A stretch of 64,000 bases of DNA from Microbacterium luteolum. Lineage in GTDB: Bacteria > Actinomycetota > Actinomycetes > Actinomycetales > Microbacteriaceae. The position numbers were made by a program, and so were the translations under genes. The notes under the pieces are model-generated. The model searched no databases, was not told the DNA's origin, and saw nothing but the letters and a program-made list of their open reading frames with translations. The stretch covers positions 2,144,950-2,208,949 of the forward strand of contig NZ_BAAAUN010000001.1 of NCBI RefSeq assembly GCF_039533965.1. The letters are read 5' to 3'. Shown one piece after another: positions 29,045 through 44,095 of this stretch; the first letter of the stretch is position 1, and each line of letters begins with the position of its first letter.

Positions 29045-29710
29045 ATGCGAGTGCTGGTTGTCGAAGATGAGCGCTATCTGGCGGAGGCCATCCACGCGAG
29101 GCTGAGCCTGGAGGCGATATCCGCGGACATCGCCGATGACGGCGCGGCCGCGCTCGAAGCCGTCGCGCACACCGAGTACGACGTCGTGCTCCTGGACCGT
29201 GACATTCCCGTCATCCACGGCGACGAGGTGTGCCGGCGCCTCTCGCGCGACCCCGATCGACCGGCCATCCTGATGCTCACCGCTGCTCGACTACTCGACG
29301 ACAAGGTCGACGGCCTCACGCTGGGAGCGGATGACTACCTCGCGAAACCCTTCCAGTTCCCGGAGCTGATCGCCCGCCTGCGCGCGCTGAGCCGGCGCCG
29401 GTTCAGCGCGCTGCCGCCGATCCTGGAAGCGGCCGATGTGCGTCTGAACCCCATCCGGCGAGAGGTGACCCGCTCGGGGAGGTTCGTGAACCTCACCCGT
29501 AAGGAGTTCGCGGTCCTGGAGGTGCTGATGCGGGAGCCGGGGACGGTCGTGAGTGCCGAACGACTGCTCGAGAAGGCATGGGACGAGAACGCCAACCCGT
29601 TCACGAACTCGGTCAAGGTCACGATCAGCACGCTGCGCCGGAAGCTGGGCGAACCGCGTGTCATCGAGACGTTGCCGGGTGCCGGATACGTCATCGGTCG
29701 GACGGGCTGA
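29045..29710 (+). CDS. OmpR-family response regulator
   Basis: 221 aa. Receiver domain with acidic pocket Glu7-Asp8, phospho-acceptor Asp51 (LLDRDIP), and Lys in YLAKPFQ; the C-terminal winged helix carries LTRKEFAVLEVLM and VTISTLRRKLG. An AGGAG ribosome site lies before ATG 29045. The histidine kinase starts one base after the stop. The system is divergent from the MacAB-like operon and likely controls it. Confidence 0.93.
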   Translation: MRVLVVEDERYLAEAIHARLSLEAISADIADDGAAALEAVAHTEYDVVLLDRDIPVIHGDEVCRRLSRDPDRPAILMLTAARLLDDKVDGLTLGADDYLAKPFQFPELIARLRALSRRRFSALPPILEAADVRLNPIRREVTRSGRFVNLTRKEFAVLEVLMREPGTVVSAERLLEKAWDENANPFTNSVKVTISTLRRKLGEPRVIETLPGAGYVIGRTG

Positions 29711-29711
29711 C

Positions 29712-30929
29712 ATGTCCGCCACACGACCGACGGGCTCGACGGAGCCGAATCGCCTGAAGCTGAGCGTCGAGGGTTTCCGGCTGACGCTGCGGACCCGTCT
29801 CGCGCTCACCTACGCCGGACTCCTCACGCTGGCTGGTGCGTTGATGATGCTGATCGTCTACGTCGTGGTGGGGTATCTGCCCACTTATGCGTTCGCCGTG
29901 CCGGCGACCACGGCGGAACCCCTGCAGACCACCCCGACCGAACCGCTCTACGACACCGGCATCGCAGCCGCCGAGACCATCCCCGGCCTGATCGTCTCCT
30001 CGCGCAGTGACGTGCAGACGCTGATCCTGATCATCGCCGCGATCCTCCTGGTGCTCCTCGCCGGCGGCGGAACGTGGGCCGGCTGGGCCCTGGCAGGACG
30101 GATGCTCCGACCGCTGCAGGAGGTCAACGCCGCCGCGCACCGCGCGGCACGCGGACACCTCGACCACCGGATCGCCCTCGCAGGCCCGAAAGACGAGCTG
30201 ACCGACCTGGCCGACACCTTCGACGAGATGCTCGAGGGCCTCGAACGCTCCTTCGGGACCTATCGTCGTTTCGCGGCCAACGCCTCGCACGAGCTGCGCA
30301 CCCCGTTGGCGACGACCCGCGCGATGCTCGACGTGGCGCTCAGCGGAGCGGATGCGCACGAGCGTCCCCTGCTCGAGCGACTGCGGGAGACCAACGAGCG
30401 CAGCATCGACACCGTGGAGTCCCTGCTCGACCTGACGGAGGTCGATGCGGCGAGCGCGGATCACGGCATCGTCCAGCTGGAGCAGGTCGCCACGTTCGTG
30501 TTGGCGGAGGTCGCCGAGGAGGCGGAGGCCGCGGGCGTGCGGATCGACTACCGGCTGTCGACGACGCCGGTCTCCGGCGACGCGTCGCTGCTGAGACAGC
30601 TGCTCTTCAACCTCATCCAGAACGGCGTCCGGCACAACGAGCCGGGCGGCTGGGTCAGGGTGACGACCGAGTCACGCCCGCGCACAGGGGCCGAGCTGCG
30701 GGTCGAGAACTCCGGAGCCTTCGTCGCGGATGCCGACCTCGAATCGCTCACCGACCCGTTCTTCCGCGCGCGCGGCCGATCCACGGCGTCGACCTCGAAG
30801 GGGCGGGGCCTCGGCCTGTCGATCGTGAAGGCCATCACCGATCGCCACGACGCCACGCTCCGCTTCGCGGCGAGGGAGGAAGGCGGCCTCGTCGCCACGG
30901 TGGTCTTCCCACCGGACGACGCCCCCTGA
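29712..30929 (+). CDS. Sensor histidine kinase
   Basis: 405 aa. Two membrane helices (about residues 34-56 and 98-120) bracket a short extracytoplasmic loop of about 40 residues; then HAMP, HisKA with His193 (ASHELRTP), and HATPase with N-box and GRGLGLSIV. The small sensor loop suggests detection of membrane stress rather than a large ligand, as in bacitracin/lantibiotic-sensing kinases (inference). The partner is the response regulator just upstream. Confidence 0.92.
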   Translation: MSATRPTGSTEPNRLKLSVEGFRLTLRTRLALTYAGLLTLAGALMMLIVYVVVGYLPTYAFAVPATTAEPLQTTPTEPLYDTGIAAAETIPGLIVSSRSDVQTLILIIAAILLVLLAGGGTWAGWALAGRMLRPLQEVNAAAHRAARGHLDHRIALAGPKDELTDLADTFDEMLEGLERSFGTYRRFAANASHELRTPLATTRAMLDVALSGADAHERPLLERLRETNERSIDTVESLLDLTEVDAASADHGIVQLEQVATFVLAEVAEEAEAAGVRIDYRLSTTPVSGDASLLRQLLFNLIQNGVRHNEPGGWVRVTTESRPRTGAELRVENSGAFVADADLESLTDPFFRARGRSTASTSKGRGLGLSIVKAITDRHDATLRFAAREEGGLVATVVFPPDDAP

Positions 30930-31371: not shown

Positions 31372-31436
31372 CCGTAAGGATTCCGTGAGGGTCATCCGAC
31401 ACGCCGTAGGGATTCCGTGAGGATGGCGTGAGGAAG
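31372..31436 (+). promoter_or_regulatory. Tandem 11-bp direct repeats upstream of the KimA-like gene (putative KdpE boxes)
   Basis: Two repeat pairs. CCGTAAGGATT (31372-31382) is followed by CCGTGAGGGTC. CCGTAGGGATT (31404-31414) is followed by CCGTGAGGATG and then GCGTGAGGAAG (31426-31436). The pairs begin 32 bp apart, about three helix turns. Head-to-tail repeats with 11-bp period are typical of OmpR/PhoP-family sites. The same pair occurs before kdp (36071-36092). Confidence 0.65.
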
Positions 31437-31449
31437 CCGTCGGCAGGCG

Positions 31450-31455
31450 TAGTGT
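31450..31455 (+). promoter_or_regulatory. -10 box TAGTGT for the KimA-like gene
   Basis: TAGTGT ends 8 nt before GTG 31464 and directly follows the repeat array at 31404-31447, the position expected for an activator bound near -35. Confidence 0.55.
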
Positions 31456-31463
31456 CGCCGGAC

Positions 31464-33521
31464 GTGTCAGACGAAATCAAGGACGGCGCGGATTCACCCC
31501 CGCGGGCCAAGCGCATCCTCATCGGCGACCCGCTGACGAGTGAGCAGGTGGAGGACCAGCTGCTCCCGAAGAAGATGGCGCTACCGATCTTCGCGTCGGA
31601 CGCGCTGAGCTCGGTGGCGTACGCGCCGCAGGAGCTCGTGATGATCCTGCTGATCGGCGGACTCACCTTCCTGTCGTTCACTCCCCTGGTCGCGGCCGCG
31701 GTCGTCCTGCTGCTGATCGTCGTGGTCCTCAGCTACCGGCAGCTCATCAAGGCCTACCCCTCCGGCGGAGGCGACTACGAGGTCGCCTCGAAGAACCTCG
31801 GCGAGATCCCCGGCGTGATCGTCGCGGCCGCACTGCTGGTCGACTACGTGCTGACCGTGGCCGTCTCGGTCGCCTCGGGCGTGGACAACATCATCTCCGC
31901 GGTCCCCGGTCTCGATCCGCTGCGCGTGGAGCTGGCGGTCGGATTCGTCATCCTGATCATCATCGTGAACCTCCGCGGCGTGCGCGAGGCATCACTCGTC
32001 TTCGCGATCCCCACGTACGTGTTCATCGCCTCGGTCGCCTTCATGATCGTGACGGGGCTGGTGCGCACGTTCCTGGGAGACGCCCCCATCGCCTCGAGCG
32101 CCGAGTTCTCGGTGCAGGCCGAGAATCTCAGCCAGGCCGCCGTCATCCTCCTCATCCTGCGCGCGTTCTCGAGCGGATGCTCCGCCCTCACGGGCGTGGA
32201 GGCCGTGTCGAACGGCGTGCCCGCGTTCCGCACCCCCAAGGTGCGCAACGCGCAGTCGACCCTCGTGCTGATGGGTTCGATCGCCGCCTGCCTGTTCGCG
32301 GGGCTCACCGCCCTGGCCCTGATCACCGGCGTGCACTACGCCGAGAATCCATGCGACCTGATCGGCTTCGACTGCGCGAATCCGCAGCCCAGCCTGATGG
32401 CGCAGATCGCGAGCGCGACGTTCGGCGGTGGCAGCATCCTGTTCTTCATCGTGCAGGCGGCGACGGCCTGCGTGCTGCTGCTCGCGGCGAACACGGCGTT
32501 CAACGGATTCCCGCTGCTCGGTGCGGTCCTCGCCCGCGACGGCTACGCGCCGAAGTCGCTGAACACCCGCGGAGACCGCCTTGTGTTCTCGAACGGCATG
32601 ATCCTGCTCGGCATCGGCGCCATGATCGTTCTCGTGGTGTTCCAGGCGCGCCTGACGACACTGATCCAGCTGTACATCATCGGCGTCTTCGTGTCGTTCT
32701 CGCTTGGCCAGATCGGCATGGTGCGGCACTGGCGGAGGGTCCTCCGCACACCCGACGACGCGTCCGGCGCGGCAGCATCCGATCGCCGCTCCGCGAGAGT
32801 GGGGCTCATCATCAACTCCGCCGGCGCCGTCATGACGGTGGCCGTGCTGCTGATCGTGACGATCACCAAGTTCACCCACGGCGCGTATCTCGTGTTCTTC
32901 GCGATCCCGATCCTCGCGTTCCTGATGATGGGCGTGAAGCGGTACTACCGCGACGTCGACCACGAGATCGCGATCGACGACACCACCCGCTTCGGCGCGA
33001 CGGGCGACGTCGCGATCGTCATGGTCAGCAAGCTGCAGAAGCCCGTCGCGAAGGCCGTCGACTACGCGGTCGCCGCGAAGCACGGCAAGACGATCGCGGT
33101 GCACGTGGCCGTCGATGCGGATGACGCCAGCGAGCTGCAGCAGCAGTGGGCCGACCATCTGATGCCGATCCCGCTCGTGATCCTCGAGTCGCCGTACCGC
33201 TCGTTCGCGCAGCCGGTGACCCAGTTCATCAAGCAGTACCGGGCCAAGCACGGCTCCTCGGTCGTGACCGTGTACCTGCCGCAGTACATCGTCGGCCACT
33301 GGTGGGAGTCGTTCCTGCACAACCGCCGCGCTCGTCGCCTCGCCAACCAGCTCATGCTCGTGCACGGGGTGTCGATCACGCTCGTCCCCTGGCTGCTGGA
33401 CTCCTCCGAGCTCATCTACGGGCGTCGCTCGCGGCCGCTGCCGGGACAGGAACGCGCCGGACGCCCGGTCGTCGTCTCGGGACGGCGCGCACACCGCCCG
33501 GGCGGTCCGCCTCAGGAGTGA
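31464..33521 (+). CDS. KimA-like APC-superfamily potassium importer
   Basis: 685 aa from GTG 31464. About 12 membrane helices (residues about 45-500) begin after DALSSVAYAPQE; the family motif YPSGGGDYEVASKNLGE is near residue 100. The C-terminal 170 residues form a cytosolic USP-like domain (VAIVMVSKLQKPVAKAVDYA). This layout is that of KimA (YdaO), a proton-coupled high-affinity K+ importer controlled by c-di-AMP in Bacillus. Older annotation would read amino-acid permease. The promoter shares repeats with kdp, which supports the potassium role. Start chosen from the leaderless -10; GTG 31428 would lie within the repeats. Confidence 0.83.
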   Translation: MSDEIKDGADSPPRAKRILIGDPLTSEQVEDQLLPKKMALPIFASDALSSVAYAPQELVMILLIGGLTFLSFTPLVAAAVVLLLIVVVLSYRQLIKAYPSGGGDYEVASKNLGEIPGVIVAAALLVDYVLTVAVSVASGVDNIISAVPGLDPLRVELAVGFVILIIIVNLRGVREASLVFAIPTYVFIASVAFMIVTGLVRTFLGDAPIASSAEFSVQAENLSQAAVILLILRAFSSGCSALTGVEAVSNGVPAFRTPKVRNAQSTLVLMGSIAACLFAGLTALALITGVHYAENPCDLIGFDCANPQPSLMAQIASATFGGGSILFFIVQAATACVLLLAANTAFNGFPLLGAVLARDGYAPKSLNTRGDRLVFSNGMILLGIGAMIVLVVFQARLTTLIQLYIIGVFVSFSLGQIGMVRHWRRVLRTPDDASGAAASDRRSARVGLIINSAGAVMTVAVLLIVTITKFTHGAYLVFFAIPILAFLMMGVKRYYRDVDHEIAIDDTTRFGATGDVAIVMVSKLQKPVAKAVDYAVAAKHGKTIAVHVAVDADDASELQQQWADHLMPIPLVILESPYRSFAQPVTQFIKQYRAKHGSSVVTVYLPQYIVGHWWESFLHNRRARRLANQLMLVHGVSITLVPWLLDSSELIYGRRSRPLPGQERAGRPVVVSGRRAHRPGGPPQE

Positions 33522-33538
33522 TCGCGGCGCGGCATCCC

Positions 33539-33544
33539 TAGGCT
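33539..33544 (+). promoter_or_regulatory. -10 box TAGGCT for the ThuA-like gene (leaderless start)
   Basis: TAGGCT ends 6 nt before ATG 33551, the same hexamer and almost the same spacing as at 6268. Confidence 0.55.
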
Positions 33545-33550
33545 GAGGGC

Positions 33551-34258
33551 ATGAACTCACGCAGAGCCCTGATCGTGCGCGGCGGCTGGTCGGGACACCA
33601 GCCGGTGGAGACCACGGACCTCTTCGTCCCGTTCCTCGAGCAGAACGGCTACGACGTCAGGATCGAGGAGTCCCCCGAGATCTACGCGGATGCCGCCGCG
33701 ATGGCGGAGACCGATCTCATCGTGCAGTCCGTGACCATGTCGGAGATCTCCGGTGCCGCCGTGAAGGGTCTGCGCGATGCCGTGCTCGCGGGTACGGGGT
33801 TCGCGGGCTGGCACGGTGGCATCGTCGACTCGTACCGCGCCAACTCCGACTACCTGCAGCTGGTCGGCGGGCAGTTCGTCAAGCACCCCGCGAAGGCACC
33901 GGAGCAGATCCGCGGCGACGGTGCCGACAGCTTCCTGCCGCACACGATCGACATCACCGATCTCGGACGCGATCACGACATCACGCGCGGCATCGACGAC
34001 CTCGCGCTCACCACCGAGCAGTACTGGGTGCTGCACGACGACCTCAACGACGTGCTGGCCACGACGACGCATCCGGCGCGCTCCGATCAGCCGTGGCACC
34101 GCCCCGTGACCTCGCCGGCGGTGTGGACCCGCTCCTGGGGTGCCGGGCGCGTCTTCGTCGCCACCCCTGGGCACGATCCGGATGTGCTGCGCGACGCGAA
34201 CGTCCGCACCATCGTCGAGCGCGGGCTGCTGTGGGCGAGTCGCGGGAGTTCGGCGTAG
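33551..34258 (+). CDS. ThuA-like domain protein
   Basis: 235 aa, class I glutamine-amidotransferase-like fold of the ThuA (trehalose utilisation) family. Seen features are ALIVRGGWSGHQP at the N-terminus, GFAGWHGG in the middle (the WHGG motif typical of ThuA proteins) and PVTSPAVWTRSWGAGRVF-like end strand. ThuA family members act in sugar catabolism, but the reaction of this branch is not established. It stands alone between potassium genes. Confidence 0.86.
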   Translation: MNSRRALIVRGGWSGHQPVETTDLFVPFLEQNGYDVRIEESPEIYADAAAMAETDLIVQSVTMSEISGAAVKGLRDAVLAGTGFAGWHGGIVDSYRANSDYLQLVGGQFVKHPAKAPEQIRGDGADSFLPHTIDITDLGRDHDITRGIDDLALTTEQYWVLHDDLNDVLATTTHPARSDQPWHRPVTSPAVWTRSWGAGRVFVATPGHDPDVLRDANVRTIVERGLLWASRGSSA

Positions 34259-34326
34259 CGGCGACCGATACCGGCCTCTTCCCGAATTCCCGTGAACCTT
34301 TCTTCCGGGATCGGGCAATAGCTTGT

Positions 34327-34455
34327 ATGACCATTCACGACTCGCACACCGTCGACCCGGCATCCGTCTTCCTCCCGCAGACCGTACAGGTCGACCTCAG
34401 CTGGCTCTTCGCCGACCTTCAAGCAGGCAACCCGACGTCGACGCGGTCGGCGTAG
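34327..34455 (+). CDS. Doubtful small ORF, 42 aa
   Basis: ATG 34327 to TAG 34453-34455. The N-terminal 34 residues look protein-like (HTVDPASVFLPQTVQVDLSWLF), then composition turns random, which suggests a remnant of a longer gene. No ribosome site, though GGGCAATAGCTTGT precedes the ATG. It lies in a decayed stretch together with the broken gene at 34490-34687. Confidence 0.3.
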   Translation: MTIHDSHTVDPASVFLPQTVQVDLSWLFADLQAGNPTSTRSA

Positions 34456-34489
34456 CGGCGGAACGAGGAGCGTCGGACGGTTCGGCGCG

Positions 34490-34687
34490 TCAGACGTCGT
34501 CGACCGACCCCAAGACGACCCGCTTCGCCTCATCGACACGCTCTGAGTAGTCCGGGGGAAGCCTCGTCGATCAGAGTCTCGAGTTGCGCCTCGAGATCCG
34601 CGAGAGACCATCGGCCGCGGTGTCATCCCACGCGGCGTCGTACCCTTCTGAGAACGCCTGGTCGTACGCCTCCTCCAGATTCGTCAT
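34490..34687 (-). pseudogene. Small gene broken by two frameshifts
   Basis: Protein-like sequence continues across three frames: MTNLEEAYDQAFSEGYDAAW from ATG 34687, then SLADLEAQLETLIDE, then DYSERVDEAKRVVLGSVDDV ending at the TGA at 34490-34492. Joined, it would be an acidic, helix-forming protein of about 66 aa. The second shift falls at a run of five C, so a sequencing indel is possible for that one. Family not recognised. Confidence 0.55.
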
Positions 34688-34720
34688 GGCCACATGCTAG
34701 CCAACCACCTCGACATCGAG

Positions 34721-35900
34721 TCAGGCCGCGACGAGGGCGAGCACCAGGGCGGCGACCGCCACCGTCGGCACGGCCACGACGACGCCCCAGAGCATGAAGC
34801 GCGGCCAGCTGATCGTGACGCCGAGCGCGACGATGCGGTGATGCCAGAGCAGCGTCGCGAGGGAAGCCCAGGGCGTGATGAGCGGGCCCAGGTTCACGCC
34901 GATCAGGAGCGCCATCAGCGCGACGGGGTCGCCCGCGGCGGGCTCGAGGATCAGATAGGCGGGGAGGTTGTTCACGCCATTGGCGGTGACAGCGCCCATC
35001 GCGGCGAGCTGGAGAAGCGCCCCCACCCCGTGACCGCTCGGCGCGACGTCCGTCAGGAAGTCCAGGATGCCGTTGGCGTGCGCGGTCTCGACCAGCACGA
35101 AGAGCGCGGCCGCGAGGCCCAGCGCCTGCCACGGCACCAGCCCGAGCCGCAGGACGTGCCGTCGACGCACGGCGAAGAGCACGAGCATCGAGAGCGCCGC
35201 GACCGTGGCGGGGATCCAGACGTCATGCGTGAGCGTCAGCAGCGGCAGCAGCACCACCAGCACCCCGACCGCGCCCCAGAACAGCACACGGTCGGGCGGT
35301 GTGCCCGGCTGCGGCACCCGATAGGCGCCGAAGAGGGTGCGGCGGTGGGCGACCGTGAGGATCGCGACCGGGATGAGCACGCCGACCAGCGTCGGAGCCC
35401 AGCTGAGCGCGAGGAACGCGGCGGGGTCGGCGCCGATGGCGGGAGCGGCGAGCAGGTTCGTCAGGTTCGAGGACGGGCAGAGCGAGGGATGCCGTGTTCG
35501 CCAGCCACACCGTCGCGAGCGCGAACGGCAGCGGGGAGACGCCGATGCTCTGCGCGAGCACCACCACGACCGGCGTCACGATCACGGCCGTGGTGTCGAG
35601 CGACAGGAACACGGTGCTGACCACGGCGAGCGCGACGACCGATGCCCACAGCGCGACGACGCGGCCGTGTCCCCAGCGGGCGAGCCGCTGCGCGAGCACG
35701 TCGAACACACCGGCATCACGGGCGAGCTCGGCGACGATCGTGATGGCCACCACGAATCCGAGGACCGGGGCCGTGCGGAGGCCGAGGGCACCGGCATCCG
35801 CACTCGGCAGGATGCCGCTGATCGCGCATACCGCGGCGACGGCGATGAGCGTCAGGACGATCACCGTCCCCGCCCCGATCCGCCGTCTGGTCGCACCCAC
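34721..35900 (-). pseudogene. ArsB/SLC13-type anion permease, one frameshift
   Basis: The 5' part (GTG 35900) and 3' part (to 34721) encode consecutive halves of one permease in different frames. The break is at about 35470-35474, where one extra C/G after NTASLALPV shifts the frame; removing it gives VSNLTNLLAAPAIGAD and a 392-residue protein. The C-terminal GVNLGPLITPWASLATLLW matches the ArsB-type loop. Total length is 3n+1, as expected for one inserted base. It could be a real pseudogene or a sequence error. Intact, it would export arsenite or move another oxyanion. Confidence 0.78.
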
Positions 35901-35927
35901 TCCGTGAGCTTAGAACCGCGAGGGTTC

Positions 35928-36018
35928 TTCCGGTCGCACTTCGCGCTGCCACGCGAGGTTCCGGTCGCAGTTCGCGCCGCCTTTCGCTGCAGAGGGCGGC
36001 AGCAACTGCGACCGGAAC
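35928..36018. repeat. Inverted/direct repeat block upstream of kdp
   Basis: Unit TTCCGGTCGCASTTCGC occurs as a direct copy at 35928-35944 and at 35959, and the second copy pairs with an inverted copy ending at 36018: arms 35958-35981 and 35995-36018 match at about 21 of 24 positions around a 13-nt loop. It lies between the broken permease and the kdp promoter and is unrelated to the two repeat families found inside genes. Confidence 0.7.
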
Positions 36019-36070
36019 GCGGTCCTTGTCGACGCCCATCGTGAGGGCCGCGCATGGGTCGCGCCGGAAC

Positions 36071-36092
36071 CCGTAGGGGAACCGTGAGGATC
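36071..36092 (+). promoter_or_regulatory. Tandem 11-bp direct repeat upstream of kdp (putative KdpE box)
   Basis: CCGTAGGGGAA (36071-36081) is followed by CCGTGAGGATC (36082-36092), nearly identical to the pair at 31404-31425. The first base of the box is 59 nt before GTG 36130; the corresponding distance for the KimA-like gene is 60 nt. Confidence 0.65.
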
Positions 36093-36129
36093 GACGGATG
36101 CTGCACCGTACGGGAGTTGTATCGACTCC

Positions 36130-36213
36130 GTGCTCGACATCATCTACATCGCGCTGACTCTCGCGCTGTTCGCCCTCGTGTCCCTGGTCGCGAAGGGGGT
36201 GGAGCGACTGTGA
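36130..36213 (+). CDS. 27-residue membrane peptide leading the kdp operon
   Basis: GTG 36130 to TGA 36211-36213. The peptide starts [13 protein letters not shown] and ends [13 protein letters not shown]: one membrane helix and a short basic cytoplasmic end. Its stop overlaps the kdpF GTG (GTGA), so it is coupled to kdpF. It has a layout like KdpF but a different sequence. The start lies about 7 nt after TTGTAT (36117-36122), suggesting a leaderless transcript. Too short for ordinary gene calling; I believe it is real because of length, helix, overlap and operon position. Possible role: stabilising Kdp or a regulatory leader. Confidence 0.6.
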
Positions 36214-36299
36214 TCGTCTTCGAGATCATCGCCGCCGCCCTCGCGGTCGCCGCCGTCGTCTACCTCGTGGTCGCCCTCGTCGCTCCGGAGAGGTTCTGA
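36210..36299 (+). CDS. kdpF: Potassium-transporting ATPase subunit KdpF
   Basis: 29-aa single-helix subunit ([20 protein letters not shown] ... PERF) that stabilises KdpABC in the membrane. GTG 36210 overlaps the preceding micropeptide stop, and its own TGA shares a base with the kdpA ATG. Confidence 0.85.
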
Positions 36300-37978
36300 T
36301 GGATACGTCGATCTGGTTCGGCATCCTGCAGGTCACGGCCGTCGTGGTCGTGCTCGTCCTGCTGTATCGCCCCCTCGGCGACTACATCGCCCACGTCTAC
36401 ACGACCCCGCGCGACCTCCGCGTCGAGCGCGGCCTCTACCGCGTGATCGGGGTCGACTCCCGGTCCGAGCAGACCTGGCGTGCATACGCCCGCAGCGTGC
36501 TCGCCTTCTCGGTCGTCGGCGTCGTCCTCGTCTACGCGCTGCAGCGCCTCCAGGCTTTCCTGCCGCAGTCGCTGGGCCTGCCCGCCGTGCCGGAGGGACT
36601 CGCTTTCAACACCGCGGCCTCCTTCGTCGCCAACACGAACTGGCAGTCGTACTCGCCGGAGCAGACGATGGGCTACGCCGTTCAGCTCGCCGGGCTCACC
36701 GTGCAGAACTTCGTCTCGGCGGCGGTCGGCCTCACCATCGCGATCGCGCTGATCCGCGGTCTCGCCCGCCGCGGCTCGTCGACGATCGGCAACTTCTGGG
36801 TCGACCTGACCCGCGGCCTCGGACGCCTCCTGCTCCCGATCGCGCTGATCGGCGCGGTGGCTCTGCTCGCGGGCGGCGTCATCCAGAACTTCGCCGGCTT
36901 CACCGACGTCACCACGGTCTCGGGCGGAACGCAGACGATCCCCGGCGGTCCGGTCGCCTCTCAGGAGGCGATCAAGCTCCTCGGCACGAACGGCGGCGGG
37001 TTCTTCAACGCCAACTCGGCGCACCCGTTCGAGAACCCCAGCGGGTTCACGAACCTGCTCGAGATCCTGCTGATCCTCATCATCCCGTTCGCGCTCCCCC
37101 GCACTTTCGGGCGCATGGTCGGCGACCACCGCCAGGGCTACGCCATCGCCGCGGTCATGGGCACGATCTTCCTCGTCTCGACGTTCGCGCTCTCTGCGCT
37201 CGAACTCGCCGGCCGCGGCAGCGCCCCAGAGCTCGCCGGAGCCGCGATGGAGGGCAAGGAGGCGCGCTTCGGCATCCTGGGCTCCACGCTGTTCGGCACG
37301 GCCAGCACGCTCACGTCCACCGGCGCGGTCAACTCCATGCACGACTCGTACACGGCCCTCGGCGGCATGATGCCGATGCTCAACATGATGCTCGGCGAGG
37401 TCGCCCCCGGCGGCGTGGGCTCGGGCCTGTACGGCATGCTGGTGCTCGCGATCATCGCGGTGTTCGTCGGCGGGCTGCTCGTCGGCCGCACCCCCGAGTA
37501 CCTCGGCAAGCGCATCGGGCCGCGCGAGATCAAGCTCGCGAGCCTCTACATCCTCGTGGTGCCGGCGCTCGTCCTCGGCGGTACGGCTCTGAGCTTCGCG
37601 ATCCCCGGCATCCGCGAGGACGTCGAGTCGACCAGCATCCTGAACCCCGGCGTGCACGGCATGAGCGAGGTGCTCTACGCCTTCACCTCGGCCTCGAACA
37701 ACAACGGCTCGGCGTTCGCCGGGCTCACCGCCAACACCCCGTGGTTCAACACGGCCCTGGGCGTCGCGATGCTGCTCGGCAGGTTCCTCCCGATCGTGCT
37801 CGTGCTGGCCCTGGCCGGCTCGTTCGCGGCACAGGAGCGGGTCCCCGCCACCTCGGGCACGCTGCCCACTCACCGGCCGCAGTTCGTCGGCCTCCTCCTC
37901 GCCGTGACGGTCATCGTCACCGCACTCACGTACTTCCCGGTGCTCGCGCTGGGACCCCTCGCTGAAGGACTCGTCTGA
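36299..37978 (+). CDS. kdpA: Potassium-transporting ATPase K+-channel subunit KdpA
   Basis: 559 aa, ten-helix channel-like subunit that selects and binds K+. The third selectivity-filter repeat region [19 protein letters not shown] is clear near residue 230, with other repeats at TNWQSY and near the C-terminus ([12 protein letters not shown]). Full length. Followed by kdpB with one base between. Confidence 0.97.
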
Positions 37979-37979
37979 C

Positions 37980-40172
37980 ATGACAATCGATACCGACGTT
38001 CACGAGCCTGACGTTTCGTCTCGCTCCGCTCGCTCGACGACCGAGGCGCCTGCCCGCGCCTTCGGATGGGCACAGCTCGTGCAGGCGCTCCCTGGAGCGC
38101 TGCGCAAGCTGAACCCGACCGCGCTCGTGCGCAACCCCGTGATGCTGCTGGTCTGGGTCGGCGCCGCCTTCACCACGGTGCTCGCGATCGCGGAGCCGTT
38201 CCTGGGCGGACCGGCCGACTCCGGTGGAACGCCCGTCCCCGCCCCGTTCACCTGGGGCATCGCGGTGTGGCTGTGGCTCACCGTGCTGTTCGCGAACGTC
38301 GCCGAGTCCGTGGCCGAGGGCCGCGGCAAAGCCCAGGCCGCGACCCTGCGCAAGACCCGGACGAGCACCATGGCGCGGCGGGTCGTCGCTCACGATATGT
38401 CGAGCGATCCGCTCGCCGAATCGGCCGAGGTGGTCGAGGTCTCGTCGGCGGAGCTGCAGCGCGACGACGTCGTGATCGTGACCGCGGGTGAGCTCATCCC
38501 CGGCGACGGCGACATCATCGCCGGCATCGCAACCGTCGATGAGTCGGCGATCACGGGCGAGAGCGCCCCGGTCATCCGCGAGTCGGGAGGCGACCGCAGC
38601 GCCGTCACCGGCGGCACCCGCGTGCTGTCCGACCGGATCGTGGTGCGCATCACCTCCAAGCCGGGCGAGACCTTCGTCGACCGCATGATCGCCCTCGTCG
38701 AAGGCGCGAGCCGGCAGCGCACACCGAACGAGATCGCGCTGAACATCCTGCTCGCGAGCCTCTCGATCGTGTTCGTGGTGGTCGTCCTCGCCCTCAACCC
38801 GATCGCGTCGTACGCCGCGTCGCCCGTCAGCATCCCGGTCCTCATCGCGCTGCTCGTGTGCCTCATCCCGACGACCATCGGGGCGCTGCTCTCGGCCATC
38901 GGCATCGCGGGCATGGACCGCCTCGTGCAGCGCAACGTGCTGGCGATGTCGGGACGAGCGGTCGAGGCGGCCGGAGACGTGACGACACTGCTGCTCGACA
39001 AGACCGGCACCATCACCTACGGCAACCGTCGCGCACACGAGGTGCTGCCGCTTCAGGGCGTGGGAGACGCCGAGCTGCTGCGCATCGCGGCCCTCTCGTC
39101 GCTCGCCGACCCGACTCCCGAAGGCGCCTCGATCGTCGAGCTGGCCGCGAGCCGCGGCATCCGGGTCGAACAGCCGACGGATGCCGTCATCGTGCCGTTC
39201 ACCGCGCAGACGCGCATGAGCGGCCTCGATCTCGCCGACGGCACGCAGATCCGCAAGGGTGCCGGCTCCGCCGTGCGCGCCTGGCTCGGGCTCGGGGGCG
39301 ACGACACGGAGCTGACATCTCTGACGGATGCCGTCGCCTCCAGCGGCGGCACCCCCCTCGTCGTCGCGGTGAAGGGACCGGAAGGCGTTTCGTCTCGCTC
39401 CGCTCGCTCAACGACCGAGGCCGCCGACGACGACCGCATCCTCGGGGTCGTGCACCTCAAGGACATCGTCAAGGACGGCCTGCGCGAGCGCTTCGACGAG
39501 CTGCGCAGCATGGGTATTCGCACCGTCATGATCACGGGCGACAACCCGCTCACCGCCAAGGCGATCGCTGCGGAGGCCGGTGTCGACGACTTCCTCGCCG
39601 AGGCCACGCCCGAGCAGAAGCTCGAGCTGATCCGCCGCGAGCAGGAGGGCGGACGCCTCGTCGCGATGACCGGCGACGGCACGAACGATGCTCCGGCCCT
39701 CGCGCAGGCGGATGTCGGTGTCGCGATGAACACCGGCACCTCGGCCGCGAAGGAGGCCGGCAACATGGTCGACCTCGACTCGGATCCGACCAAGCTGATC
39801 GACATCGTGCGCATCGGCAAGCAGCTGCTGATCACGCGCGGGGCGCTCACGACGTTCTCGCTCGCCAACGACATCGCGAAGTACTTCGCGATCATCCCGG
39901 CGATGTTCATGGGCGTCTTCCCCGGACTCGCCACCCTCAACATCATGCAGCTGCACTCCCCGGCATCCGCTGTCACCAGCGCGATCATCTTCAACGCGAT
40001 CGTGATCGTCTTCCTCATCCCGCTCGCCCTCCGCGGAGTGAAGTACCGCCCGGCGAGCGCCTCGCAGATCCTGCAGCGCAACCTGCTGATCTACGGCCTC
40101 GGCGGCGTGATCGCGCCGTTCATCGGTATCAAGCTCATCGACCTCGTCGTCAGCCTGATCCCCGGATTCTGA
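37980..40172 (+). CDS. kdpB: Potassium-transporting P-type ATPase subunit KdpB
   Basis: 730 aa, P-type ATPase that energises K+ import through KdpA. Visible: actuator TGES, phosphorylation site DKTGT with Asp340, nucleotide domain, hinge [11 protein letters not shown], and C-terminal helices. Two repeat-derived stretches with the same residues ([11 protein letters not shown]) occur at residues 12-22 in the N-tail and 470-480 in the nucleotide-binding domain. Both look inserted and are encoded by a 34-bp repeat. The catalytic motifs are intact, so the protein is probably functional. Confidence 0.96.
38013..38046. repeat. 34-bp repeat, family 2, first copy inside kdpB
   Basis: Contains TCTCGCTCCGCTCGCTC and differs by one base from the copy at 39387-39420. 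Read in the kdpB frame it gives [11 protein letters not shown]. Confidence 0.85.
39387..39420. repeat. 34-bp repeat, family 2, second copy inside kdpB
   Basis: Same orientation and same reading frame as the copy at 38013-38046; one G-to-A difference, silent in the Ser codon (TCG to TCA). The encoded 11 residues are therefore identical. Confidence 0.85.
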
Positions 40173-40254: not shown

Positions 40255-40857
40255 ATGTCCTCCACCCGCACCGCCGTCCGGACCACGGGCGTCGCCGTCC
40301 GCGCGATGCTCGTCCTCACCCTCGTCCTGGGCGTCGGCTACACGCTGCTCGTCACCGGTATCGGGCAGCTGCTGCTCCCCGGCCAGGCGAACGGCTCCCC
40401 GCTTCCCGACGACAAGGGCAGCGCCCTGATCGGCCAGTCGTTTACGGATGCCGACGGCGAGGCTCTGCCCGAGTACTTCCAGTCCCGCCCCTCGGCGGCC
40501 GGCGACGGGTACGACGGCACCGCCTCGAGCGGCAGCAACCTCGGCCCCGAGAACCCCGACCTCGTCGCCGCGATCGAGGAGCGGAAGACGGCGATCGCGG
40601 AGCGCGAGGGCGTCTCGCCCGACGAGGTCCCGGCCGACGCGGTGACGGCATCCGGCTCCGGTCTCGACCCGCACATCAGCGTCGCGTACGCGCTGCTGCA
40701 GGTGCCGCGCGTCGCCGAAGCCCGAGGCATGAGCGAACAGGACGTCCGCGCCGTCGTGGAGTCTAGGATTCAAGGGCGGGATCTGGGATTCCTCGGCGAG
40801 GAGCGCATCAACGTCGCCGAACTCAATCTCGCGCTGGATGACGGGGAGGGCGCATGA
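40255..40857 (+). CDS. kdpC: Potassium-transporting ATPase subunit KdpC
   Basis: 200 aa, single N-terminal helix (LVLTLVLGVGYTLLVTGIGQLL) and an extracytoplasmic domain with QSFTDADGEALPEYFQSRPSA-type conserved region and GSGLDPHIS, both diagnostic. It assists ATP binding and assembly of KdpABC. Ribosome site GAAAGG; stop overlaps the kdpD start (ATGA). Confidence 0.96.
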   Translation: MSSTRTAVRTTGVAVRAMLVLTLVLGVGYTLLVTGIGQLLLPGQANGSPLPDDKGSALIGQSFTDADGEALPEYFQSRPSAAGDGYDGTASSGSNLGPENPDLVAAIEERKTAIAEREGVSPDEVPADAVTASGSGLDPHISVAYALLQVPRVAEARGMSEQDVRAVVESRIQGRDLGFLGEERINVAELNLALDDGEGA

Positions 40858-43427
40858 CGGACGGGCCGACCCGCAGTCGACCGCAGGGACCCAGTCGGGC
40901 TCACGGGTCCAGGGGCCGCCTCCGCGTGCTCCTCGGCGCCGCTCCCGGTGTCGGCAAGACCTTCGAGATGCTGGCCGAAGGGCGACGACTCCGCGAGGAG
41001 GGGCACGACGTCGTCATCGCCATCGTCGAGACCCACGACCGCGCCGCGACGCTCGCCCAGACCGTCGGCCTGGAAGAGGTCCCTCGTCGCGTCGACCTGC
41101 ACCGCGGCGTTCCGCTGACCGAACTCGACCTCGACGCGGTCCTCGCTCGATCGCCCGAGATCGCGCTCGTCGACGAGCTCGCCCACACGAACAGTCCCGG
41201 CTCGCGGCATCCGAAGCGCTGGCAGGACGTCGATCAGCTGCTCGCCGCCGGAATCGACGTGATCACGACCGTCAACGTGCAGCACGTCGAGTCCCTGAAC
41301 GCGGTGGTCGAGAAGATCACCGGCGTCGCGCAGCAGGAGACGATCCCGGATGCCGTCGTCCGCGCGGCCGACGAGATCGAGGTCGTCGACCTCGCCCCGC
41401 AGTCGCTGCGGGATCGGCTCTCCGCCGGCCACGTCTACCCGGCAGAGCGCATCGACGCGGCGCTGTCGAACTACTTCCGCCTCGGCAACCTCACCGCGCT
41501 CCGAGAGCTCGCTCTTCTCTGGCTCGCCGACGAGGTCGACAGTGCGCTGCGCAGCTACCGCGCCGAGCAGGGCATCGAGGGCACCTGGCAGGCGCGCGAG
41601 CGGGTGGTCGTCGCGCTCACCGGCGGGCCGGAGGGCGAGACCCTGCTGCGCCGCGGCGCCAGGATCGCCGCACGCTCGGCAGGCGGAGAGTTGCTGGCCG
41701 TGCACGTGTCCGCGCAGGACGGCCTGCGCACCGAGACCCCCGGCGCCCTCGCCGCGCAGCGCACACTCGTCGAGTCACTCGGCGGCAGCTACCACCAGGT
41801 CGTCGGCGACGACATCCCCGCGACGCTCGTCGAGTTCGCCCAGGGTGCCGACGCCACGCAGCTCGTCATCGGCGTCAGCCGGCGCGGACGCCTCACAGCC
41901 GCGCTCACCGGACCCGGCATCGGCGCCGAGGTCATCCGTCGATCCGGCGACATCGACGTGCACATCGTCACCCACGCCGCGGCCGGCGGAAGGCTCGCGC
42001 TCCCGCGCATGACCGGCGGCGCACTCGGCTGGCGCCGCCAGGTGCTCGGCCTCGCCGTCGCCCTGGTGTTCGGGCCCTTGCTCTCCTGGATCATGTTCAC
42101 GTTCCGCAGCCCGGAATCGATCACGTCCGAGGTTCTCGCCTACCAGCTTCTGGTCGTGGTCGTCGCCCTCATCGGCGGCATCCGCCCTGCCGTGTTCGCG
42201 GCGGTGCTCTCGGGTGTCACGCTCGACTTCCTCTTCGTCGCCCCGCTCTTCACGATCACGATCGCGCATCCGCTGCATGTGCTCGCCCTCGCGCTGTACG
42301 TCGTCATCGCGATCCTGGTGAGCATCATCGTCGACCAGGCGGCGCGGCGGGCGCGCACCGCCCAGCGCGCCGCGGCCGAGGCGGAGCTGCTCGCCGCCGT
42401 CGCCGGCAACGTGCTGCGCGGCGACAATGCGGTGCTGGCCCTCGTGAGCCGCACCCGCGAGGCGTTCGGTCTCAGCGGCGTGCGCCTTCTCTCTCCTGAC
42501 GGCGAGGTGCTCGCGAGAGACGGCGAGCCTGTGGCCGACGGCCGCGCCACGACGATCCCGGTCGGCGTCGGCGCGAACGGCACGCCCCGTGCCGTTCTCG
42601 AGCTCAACGGCGCCCCGCTCGCCGGCCCCGAGCGCCGCCTGCTGGACGCGATCGTCGCGCAGCTCGCGGCCGCGATCGAGCACACAGACCTGCGCGCGAC
42701 CGCGCTCGAAGCCGAGGCCCTCGCCGAGACCGACCAGGTGCGCAGCGCACTGCTGTCGGCGGTCAGCCACGACATCCGCCGGCCGCTGGCTTCGGCCGTC
42801 GCCGCGATCGGCGGTCTGCGCGGGGCGCATGAGCTGTCGGCATCCGATCGCGCCGAACTGCTCGCCACGGCCGACGAGAGCCTTGCGACACTGTCGGCCC
42901 TCGTCACCGATCTGCTCGACGTGAGTCGCGTGCAGGCAGGAGTACTGGCGGTGTCGGCGACCCGGCTGGAGGCGACGGCCCCGATCCTCGCGGCGGTCGA
43001 CGAGCTCGGCTTCGGTCCGTCCGATGTGGAGCTCTCCCTCGATCCGACCCTCCCCGCGCTCCAGGCCGACCCGGTGCTCCTGCAGCGGGTGCTCGTGAAC
43101 GTGCTCGCCAACGCCCACCGCCATGCCCCCGAAGGCAGCCGCGTGCGGGTCTCGACGAGCACCCTCGGCGACCGCGCCGAAATCCGCATCATCGACCGTG
43201 GTGCCGGAGTCGCCCCCGAACGCCGCGACAGCATCTTCCAGCCGTTCCAGCGCTTCGGCGACACCGACAACACCACGGGACTCGGTCTCGGACTCGCGCT
43301 GTCGCGCGGATTCACCGAGGGCATGGGCGGTACTCTGACACCCGAGGACACGCCTGGTGGCGGCCTCACGATGGTCATCTCCCTGCCGCTGGCTGCAGGG
43401 TCCACCGACTTGGAGGAGATGGAGTGA
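40854..43427 (+). CDS. kdpD: Sensor histidine kinase KdpD
   Basis: 857 aa. The N-terminal KdpD domain has Walker A GAAPGVGKTFE and DELAHTN; a USP-like domain follows (about 240-370), then four clustered membrane helices (about 390-500), a GAF-like region, HisKA with His near residue 639 (SHDIRRPLAS) and HATPase with GLGLGLALSRG. It senses potassium limitation and, in some bacteria, c-di-AMP through the USP domain. Stop overlaps the kdpE GTG. Confidence 0.96.
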   Translation: MTDGPTRSRPQGPSRAHGSRGRLRVLLGAAPGVGKTFEMLAEGRRLREEGHDVVIAIVETHDRAATLAQTVGLEEVPRRVDLHRGVPLTELDLDAVLARSPEIALVDELAHTNSPGSRHPKRWQDVDQLLAAGIDVITTVNVQHVESLNAVVEKITGVAQQETIPDAVVRAADEIEVVDLAPQSLRDRLSAGHVYPAERIDAALSNYFRLGNLTALRELALLWLADEVDSALRSYRAEQGIEGTWQARERVVVALTGGPEGETLLRRGARIAARSAGGELLAVHVSAQDGLRTETPGALAAQRTLVESLGGSYHQVVGDDIPATLVEFAQGADATQLVIGVSRRGRLTAALTGPGIGAEVIRRSGDIDVHIVTHAAAGGRLALPRMTGGALGWRRQVLGLAVALVFGPLLSWIMFTFRSPESITSEVLAYQLLVVVVALIGGIRPAVFAAVLSGVTLDFLFVAPLFTITIAHPLHVLALALYVVIAILVSIIVDQAARRARTAQRAAAEAELLAAVAGNVLRGDNAVLALVSRTREAFGLSGVRLLSPDGEVLARDGEPVADGRATTIPVGVGANGTPRAVLELNGAPLAGPERRLLDAIVAQLAAAIEHTDLRATALEAEALAETDQVRSALLSAVSHDIRRPLASAVAAIGGLRGAHELSASDRAELLATADESLATLSALVTDLLDVSRVQAGVLAVSATRLEATAPILAAVDELGFGPSDVELSLDPTLPALQADPVLLQRVLVNVLANAHRHAPEGSRVRVSTSTLGDRAEIRIIDRGAGVAPERRDSIFQPFQRFGDTDNTTGLGLGLALSRGFTEGMGGTLTPEDTPGGGLTMVISLPLAAGSTDLEEME

Positions 43428-44095
43428 AGCTCCTCATCGCCGACGACGACCCGCAGATGGTGCGGGCGCTGCGGATCACCCTGGCGGCGCACGGCTACGA
43501 GGTCGTCGTCGCAGCGGACGGAGCGGCCGCAATCGCGGTCGCTGCGCAGACGCATCCGGACCTCATCATGCTCGACCTCGGGATGCCGAGGCTCGACGGC
43601 ATCGAGGTGATCCAGGCGCTGCGCGGTTGGACGAACGTGCCGATCATCGTGGTGTCCGGACGCACGGGCTCCGCTGACAAGGTCGAAGCGCTGGATGCCG
43701 GGGCGGATGACTTCGTCACGAAGCCGTTCCAGGTGGACGAGCTGCTGGCGCGGTTGCGAGCGCTCTCGCGTCGGTCCGCTCCCGCCGGGGGCGAGTCGGT
43801 GGTGACGTTCTCCGATGTCGTCGTGGATCTCTCGACGAAGACGGTGACCCGAGGCGGCTCACGCGTACACCTCACGCCCACCGAATGGCGGATGCTGGAG
43901 CACCTGTCGCGGCATCCGGGCGCTCTCGTCACACGGCAGGATCTGCTCAAGGAGATCTGGGGAAGCGAGCAGGTCTCCGACTCCGGGTATCTGCGGCTCT
44001 ACATGTCGCAGCTGCGTAAGAAGCTTGAGCAGGAGCCGAGCGCGCCGGTGCACCTGCTCACCGAGTCGGGGATGGGCTACCGGCTCGTGCTCTGA
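43424..44095 (+). CDS. kdpE: Response regulator KdpE
   Basis: 223 aa OmpR-family regulator. Acidic pocket Asp7-Asp9, phospho-Asp51 (MLDLGMP), Lys in VTKPFQ, and C-terminal winged helix (LTPTEWRMLEHL, LRLYMSQLRKKLE). GTG 43424 overlaps kdpD (GTGA). It is the natural candidate for binding the 11-bp direct repeats before kdp and the KimA-like gene. Confidence 0.95.
   Translation: MKLLIADDDPQMVRALRITLAAHGYEVVVAADGAAAIAVAAQTHPDLIMLDLGMPRLDGIEVIQALRGWTNVPIIVVSGRTGSADKVEALDAGADDFVTKPFQVDELLARLRALSRRSAPAGGESVVTFSDVVVDLSTKTVTRGGSRVHLTPTEWRMLEHLSRHPGALVTRQDLLKEIWGSEQVSDSGYLRLYMSQLRKKLEQEPSAPVHLLTESGMGYRLVL

Follow-up and report, generated by a model that had tools for sequence, protein, structure and literature searches.

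A 64,000-nucleotide stretch of the Microbacterium luteolum genome (contig NZ_BAAAUN010000001.1, positions 2,144,950 to 2,208,949 of the forward strand; hereafter the window) carries a gene for a KimA-like potassium importer and a kdp operon that ends in the two-component genes kdpD and kdpE. Homology identifies the KimA-like protein as KimA: it matches the solved structure (PDB 6s3k) over query residues 27-655 with an E value of 1.7e-120, and is predicted to transport potassium. Its nearest named loci, taken as the first 11 among the matches listed, are all from Microbacterium and are 89-91% identical. Upstream of both kimA and kdp lie 11-bp direct repeats, present exactly as a preliminary description of this DNA had reported. 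Paired into 22-bp elements, these repeats are very probably boxes for the response regulator KdpE that jointly control the two transport systems.

Paired repeats upstream of kimA and kdp

The repeat unit is 11 bp long with the consensus CCGTAAGGATT, and two units make up one 22-bp box. The distal kimA box reads CCGTAAGGATT at 31372 and CCGTGAGGGTC at 31383; the proximal box reads CCGTAGGGATT at 31404 and CCGTGAGGATG at 31415, directly followed by a third unit, GCGTGAGGAAG, at 31426. Upstream of kdp, the proximal box consists of CCGTAGGGGAA at 36071 and CCGTGAGGATC at 36082. Boxes are paired at an offset of 32 bp (31372 and 31404 at kimA), and the proximal boxes lie 60 nt (31404 to GTG 31464) and 59 nt (36071 to GTG 36130) before the predicted starts, all as first described. 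The description of kdp as having a single box was incomplete, since it overlooked a degenerate distal box that lies 32 bp 5′ of the proximal one, at 36039-36060. This predicted box is weak by itself (-5.5 bits), yet it restores the paired layout seen at kimA, and its spacing is conserved in relatives.

A matrix scan of the window (127,958 22-mers) ranked 31404, 31372, 31415 and 36071 as the top four sites, at 35.3 to 21.3 bits, with the fifth at only 8.6 bits. The earlier statement that the window holds no other copy is correct for the tandem box. Single units are less distinctive, occurring 25 times with at most one mismatch against 13.7 expected, a count reached in 0 of 100 shuffles. In the 4.14-Mb genome, the exact tandem pattern CCGTRRGGNNNCCGTGAGG has three copies, all in the kimA/kdp region. 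Just two sites carry one mismatch, one overlapping the third kimA unit and one (C1:1691386) lying antisense within a gene that resembles a sugar-binding protein. The 18 two-mismatch sites are about as many as in the reversed control (17 in all) and give no signal. A wider regulon within this genome is therefore unsupported.

GTG 31464 is the most likely start of kimA, given that relatives share the -10 element with a GTG 6-10 nt after it; from this start, the transcript would probably be leaderless. A riboswitch upstream of kimA was considered and rejected, as no Rfam match reached the gathering score in the window and the gap between the -10 element and GTG is too short for a leader. At kdp, the 59-nt distance to GTG 36130 holds, but this codon opens a 27-residue membrane-peptide ORF that precedes the ORF at 36210-36299, which we take from its likeness to canonical KdpF to be the KdpF-like one. 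A counterpart of 27-74 residues precedes kdpA in 42 of 42 genus genomes. Predicted features are collected in Table 1.

Table 1. Predicted features of the kimA and kdp loci, in window coordinates
Feature	Position	Strand	Basis
kimA distal KdpE box (predicted), two 11-bp units	31372..31393	+	Sequence; relatives keep 32-33 bp to proximal box
kimA proximal KdpE box (predicted), two 11-bp units	31404..31425	+	Sequence, matrix; 46 nt 5′ of -10
Third, weaker 11-bp unit over place of -35 element	31426..31436	+	Sequence, matrix
kimA -10 element TAGTGT	31450..31455	+	Relatives conserve element, then 6-10 nt and GTG
kimA, potassium importer (by homology), GTG start, probably leaderless	31464..33521	+	PDB 6s3k, E 1.7e-120; start from conserved -10
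Degenerate distal kdp box, 32 bp upstream of proximal	36039..36060	+	Weak alone; spacing kept in 40/42 relatives
kdp proximal KdpE box (predicted)	36071..36092	+	Sequence, matrix, conservation in relatives
kdp -10-like element TTGTAT	36117..36122	+	46 nt from box start
27-aa membrane-peptide ORF, first in kdp operon	36130..36213	+	Similar ORF in 42/42 relatives
KdpF-like ORF, 29 aa	36210..36299	+	Appearance; presumed likeness to KdpF
kdpA	36299..37981	+	PF03814, TIGR00680
kdpB	37980..40172	+	TIGR01497
kdpC	40255..40857	+	PF02669
kdpD, full length: KdpD N-domain, Usp, DUF4118, HisKA, HATPase	40854..43427	+	Domain search
kdpE, OmpR-family response regulator, proposed binder of boxes	43424..44095	+	Domain and family searches, alignment

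Match to known KdpE sites and promoter architecture

The predicted box resembles the mapped actinobacterial KdpE site. In Mycobacterium smegmatis, the KdpE site of the kdpFABC promoter was mapped by footprinting and narrowed to 22 bp in gel-shift assays (PMC5401905). Scored with the kimA-box matrix, this site reaches 5.3, in register, a score attained by 9 of the 127,958 window 22-mers (5 of them inside the boxes studied here) and by 1 of 20,000 shuffles. Both are built from two direct half-sites with an 11-bp period, and Escherichia coli KdpE likewise binds two 6-bp direct repeats 5 bp apart (PMC3264566). The residues through which E. coli KdpE contacts DNA, R193, R200 and T215, all recur unchanged in the window KdpE, in an alignment read by eye. 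Because the published M. smegmatis site fits the same matrix, the boxes are most likely KdpE sites.

The comparison with relatives drew on 59 genus genomes and 80 named loci, two sets that overlap partly and whose counts are not additive. The genomes are related and hence non-independent, with one quick KimA tree as the kinship check, and gene absence was judged by translated searches of assemblies that include drafts. One kimA was excluded from the counts as its upstream region runs off the contig (G043), a broken kimA was counted as unboxed (G035), and L073 was left out of whole-genome gene counts.

A matrix trained on 31 distinct kimA boxes from the 80 named loci finds a box upstream of kdp in 42 of 42 genus genomes, each at 15.8 bits or more. 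The training boxes were gathered by a loose regular expression, and the matrix therefore presupposes the shape of the motif. Among 1500 random 400-bp segments, which may include true sites, the 99% point was 5.0, the 99.9% point 16.4 and the maximum 21.0. The converse matrix, built on 38 distinct kdp boxes, parts the 80 named kimA promoters cleanly: 32 score at least 20.7 bits and the other 48 at most 3.3. It also divides the 46 genus kimA promoters into 17 boxed and 29 unboxed. A pattern scan of the 59 genomes returned 29 places, 19 before kimA, 7 before kdp, 1 before ktrB and 2 before neither, against 2 in a reversed control. The boxes persist in relatives although the flanking sequence changes.

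Promoter geometry is shared as well. In the window, the proximal box starts 46 nt 5′ of the -10 element at kimA and kdp alike. The kdp promoters of relatives have a -10-like hexamer at this distance in 39 of 42 cases by script, and in the other three (G044, G051 and G055) once the proximal box was chosen by eye. For 16 of the 17 boxed kimA promoters, the best box lies 46, 57 (46 plus one unit) or 78-79 nt (46 plus 32-33) from the -10 element; the exception, G051, has its best-scoring box on the opposite strand. In 40 of 42 kdp promoters, the best upstream partner shares the strand of the box and stands 32-33 bp away from it, as opposed to 28 of 840 shuffles.

Boxed and unboxed kimA promoters differ in their -35 region. 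A TTG-type -35 at 17-18 bp spacing is found in 28 of 29 unboxed promoters and in 0 of 17 boxed ones (for G020, where the -10 pattern failed, it was scored absent by eye). This suggests that the kimA promoter swaps between a constitutive-type form, with a -35, and an activator-dependent form. Five kimA promoters (G010, G011, G027, G048 and G051) carry box pairs in opposite orientation at an offset of 34 bp, unlike kdp. At four named loci (L077, L078, L108 and L110), the inverted pair forms a long near-palindrome before the -10 element.

kdpDE in genomes without kdpA and sites across the family

Four of the 59 genus genomes (G009, G013, G016 and G056) have kdpE without kdpA, and all four have a boxed kimA, at 3.3, 19, 3.9 and 1.1 kb from kdpE, respectively. 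The other four kdpA-less genomes with kimA (G032, G035, G036 and G050) have neither a kdpE match nor a box. Among these eight, kdpE and box co-occur in 4 versus 0 (Fisher p 0.029). Of 37 named genomes, a set that overlaps in part with the genus set, 13 are without kdpA: three have kdpE and box (L075, L076 and L124), one has kdpE only (L101) and nine have neither. On the KimA tree (45 rows; the fragments G035 and G043 were left out), the four orphans require four changes; the box label requires at least as many, two of them forced by starred branches. In one further genome (L066, G061), kdpD and a kdpE (91%) adjoin kimA without kdpFABC, and kdpA lies elsewhere, accompanied by a second, more distant kdpE (67%).

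In all eight kinases studied next to an orphan kdpE gene (G009, G013, G016, G056, L073, L075, L076 and L124), the KdpD N-domain (PF02702) is absent; Usp is absent in seven, and DUF4118, HisKA and HATPase are kept in every one. Genome-wide searches for PF02702 found none in G009, G013 and G016 and one below-cut-off match, elsewhere in the genome, in G056. Eight orphan KdpE proteins examined retain the YLRLY.SQLR helix and the contact threonine. The N-domain is described as a serine kinase acting on KdpB (PMC11018627), and its loss is therefore predicted once KdpB is gone, as seen here. In the accessible text of that report, the survey covers species with an annotated Kdp pump and finds KdpD proteins without the histidine kinase. 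The window KdpD, full length with its N-domain, resembles the tandem serine-histidine kinase of that report, whereas the kdpA-less genomes present the mirror case, keeping the histidine kinase without the N-domain.

It is likely that in several Microbacterium lineages KdpDE has been re-tasked as a switch for KimA, with two exchangeable forms of the kimA promoter. On this account, the system was kept after loss of kdpFABC on four separate tree branches, KdpD shed its serine-kinase domain, and ktrB joined the regulon in some lines. The kdpA-less G013 has two boxes at the 32-bp offset upstream of a TrkH/KtrB gene (PF02386; L223 1500-1592), at a distance of 60 nt from its GTG. Among 22 such ktrB2 loci examined, one of which (G022) began inside the gene, boxes were found by pattern in G013 and by eye in G033 and G018. 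No box was seen in the stretch examined for the KtrB homologue of the M. luteolum genome itself (L301).

The pattern extends beyond the genus. Across 398 family genomes, a scan listed 103 places (hand count) in 81 genomes from 35 of 85 genera, compared with 1 in the reversed control. Of 30 family-wide loci examined, 10 hold kdpA and 7 have kdpE or kdpD beside the site; two more sites precede a CorA-type gene and three others stand beside an APC-like permease. The CorA-type gene was identified by search at L329 (PF01544) and by eye at L317. The permeases (L338 1-1464, L337 and L321) are divergent to the box. The one at L338 has no Pfam or NCBIfam match and, being only distantly related (25% alike over 157 residues), was not counted as KimA. 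In another genus, a single box lies around position 1501 of L316, between divergent kdpA and ktrB2-like genes.

Proposed mechanism, alternatives and relation to known systems

In the arrangement that we propose, each 22-bp box would comprise two head-to-tail half-sites for one KdpE dimer, and the 32-bp offset, about three helical turns, would place two dimers on the same side of the helix, with the proximal box abutting the -35 position. When potassium is low, KdpD would phosphorylate KdpE, which would then bring RNA polymerase to two promoters devoid of a -35. The KimA importer and the ATP-driven KdpFABC pump would therefore be induced together. That KdpE binds here, that it activates rather than represses, and that potassium is the signal are points we infer from sequence comparison.

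The joint potassium regulon under KdpE that was originally predicted gains support from the boxes at all 42 kdp promoters, the fit of the M. smegmatis site and the co-inheritance of box and kdpE among kdpA-less genus genomes with kimA. Several observations weigh against it. Some random segments equal the lowest kdp scores. The kimA gene is unboxed in 24 of 41 kdpE-bearing genomes that have it, and the box does not associate significantly with the presence of kdpE alone (kdpE in 17 of 17 boxed versus 24 of 29 unboxed, p 0.14). One draft genome (L056/G060) has a boxed kimA and kdpA with no kdpE match, and one metagenome bin (L101/G071) has kdpE without kdpA beside an unboxed kimA. Eight of the 30 family-wide loci examined show no evident link to potassium. 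Finally, the Trk genes of M. smegmatis were uninduced at low potassium in wild type and mutants alike, in the part of the report available (PMC5401905).

The unboxed kimA genes and the boxed draft genome without kdpE also favour another OmpR-family regulator, such as the neighbour at 29045-29710 or a global regulator like MtrA or PhoP, that would co-regulate kdp and kimA independently of KdpE; this family commonly uses 11-bp direct repeats. We nonetheless consider this improbable, given that the footprinted KdpE site fits the matrix and that kdpE is the regulator kept beside boxed kimA after loss of kdpA. The preliminary description had left room for such a regulator, and its nearest candidate fares poorly: the response regulator (at 55% identity or more) adjoins kimA in 0 of 80 related loci, 5 of which have less than 3 kb upstream. 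The neighbouring two-component pair (29045-30929) was accordingly rejected as not conserved beside kimA.

KdpE might also bind both promoters and yet repress, or only modulate, kimA, for instance by reducing KimA when Kdp is switched on. The third unit spans the position of the -35, so that a protein bound to it could obstruct polymerase, and the inverted pairs at five kimA promoters have no parallel at kdp. However, boxed promoters have no TTG -35 to occlude, and the 46-nt offset is the same as at kdp, an operon that KdpE activates in E. coli (PMC3264566) and M. smegmatis (PMC5401905), which leaves this reading very unlikely. As for chance, or descent of the two upstream regions from a common sequence without any regulatory function, random sequence does yield single units (13.7 expected when one mismatch is allowed). 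This explanation is already refuted by conservation: the three exact tandem copies all fall at kimA or kdp, the boxes outlast their changing flanks, and 103 family-wide places stand against 1 in the control.

The proposed KdpE control of kimA and kdp together can be set against known arrangements. The M. smegmatis site shares the 22-bp length, the register of its two 11-mers, the position before kdp and positive regulation by KdpE. It differs as a single site at a single operon, and the available text mentions neither kimA nor ktr as a target, nor a further box, and calls the motif unlike other KdpE motifs (PMC5401905). The E. coli site, as accessible in PMC3264566, has the same direct half-sites, period, OmpR-type binding and contact residues, but its letters are AT-rich (TTTATA/TTTACA) and it is one box. 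In Bacillus, kimA expression is also controlled in potassium homeostasis, there by a c-di-AMP riboswitch in the RNA leader (PMC6488665, seen in part), in contrast to the probably leaderless Microbacterium kimA with its predicted two-component boxes. A 2023 review, in its accessible portion, describes KdpDE as unanalysed in any Streptomyces model (PMC10117811). In the literature searched, with most subscription papers outside its coverage, no actinobacterial kimA or ktrB was found described as a KdpE target, and no account of KdpDE outliving its pump beside kimA came to light. KdpE sites are thus already known; the KdpE-kimA regulon and the survival of KdpDE beside kimA appear new within that literature.

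KdpDE is usually regarded as a dedicated kdp switch. If the proposed regulon is correct, KdpDE also governs a second, unrelated importer through predicted sites that can now be named, and two-component control replaces riboswitch control of kimA in an actinobacterial clade. The kdpA-less genomes furthermore provide a natural experiment on the recent proposal that KdpB is phosphorylated by the N-domain of KdpD: with the pump gone, the N-domain is gone, and the histidine kinase and KdpE remain beside kimA.

Between kimA and the kdp boxes, on the minus strand at 34721-35900, an ion-transporter-like gene is split over two overlapping frames. Its halves hit the Pfam families ArsB and CitMHS, perhaps reflecting a frameshift or a sequencing error.

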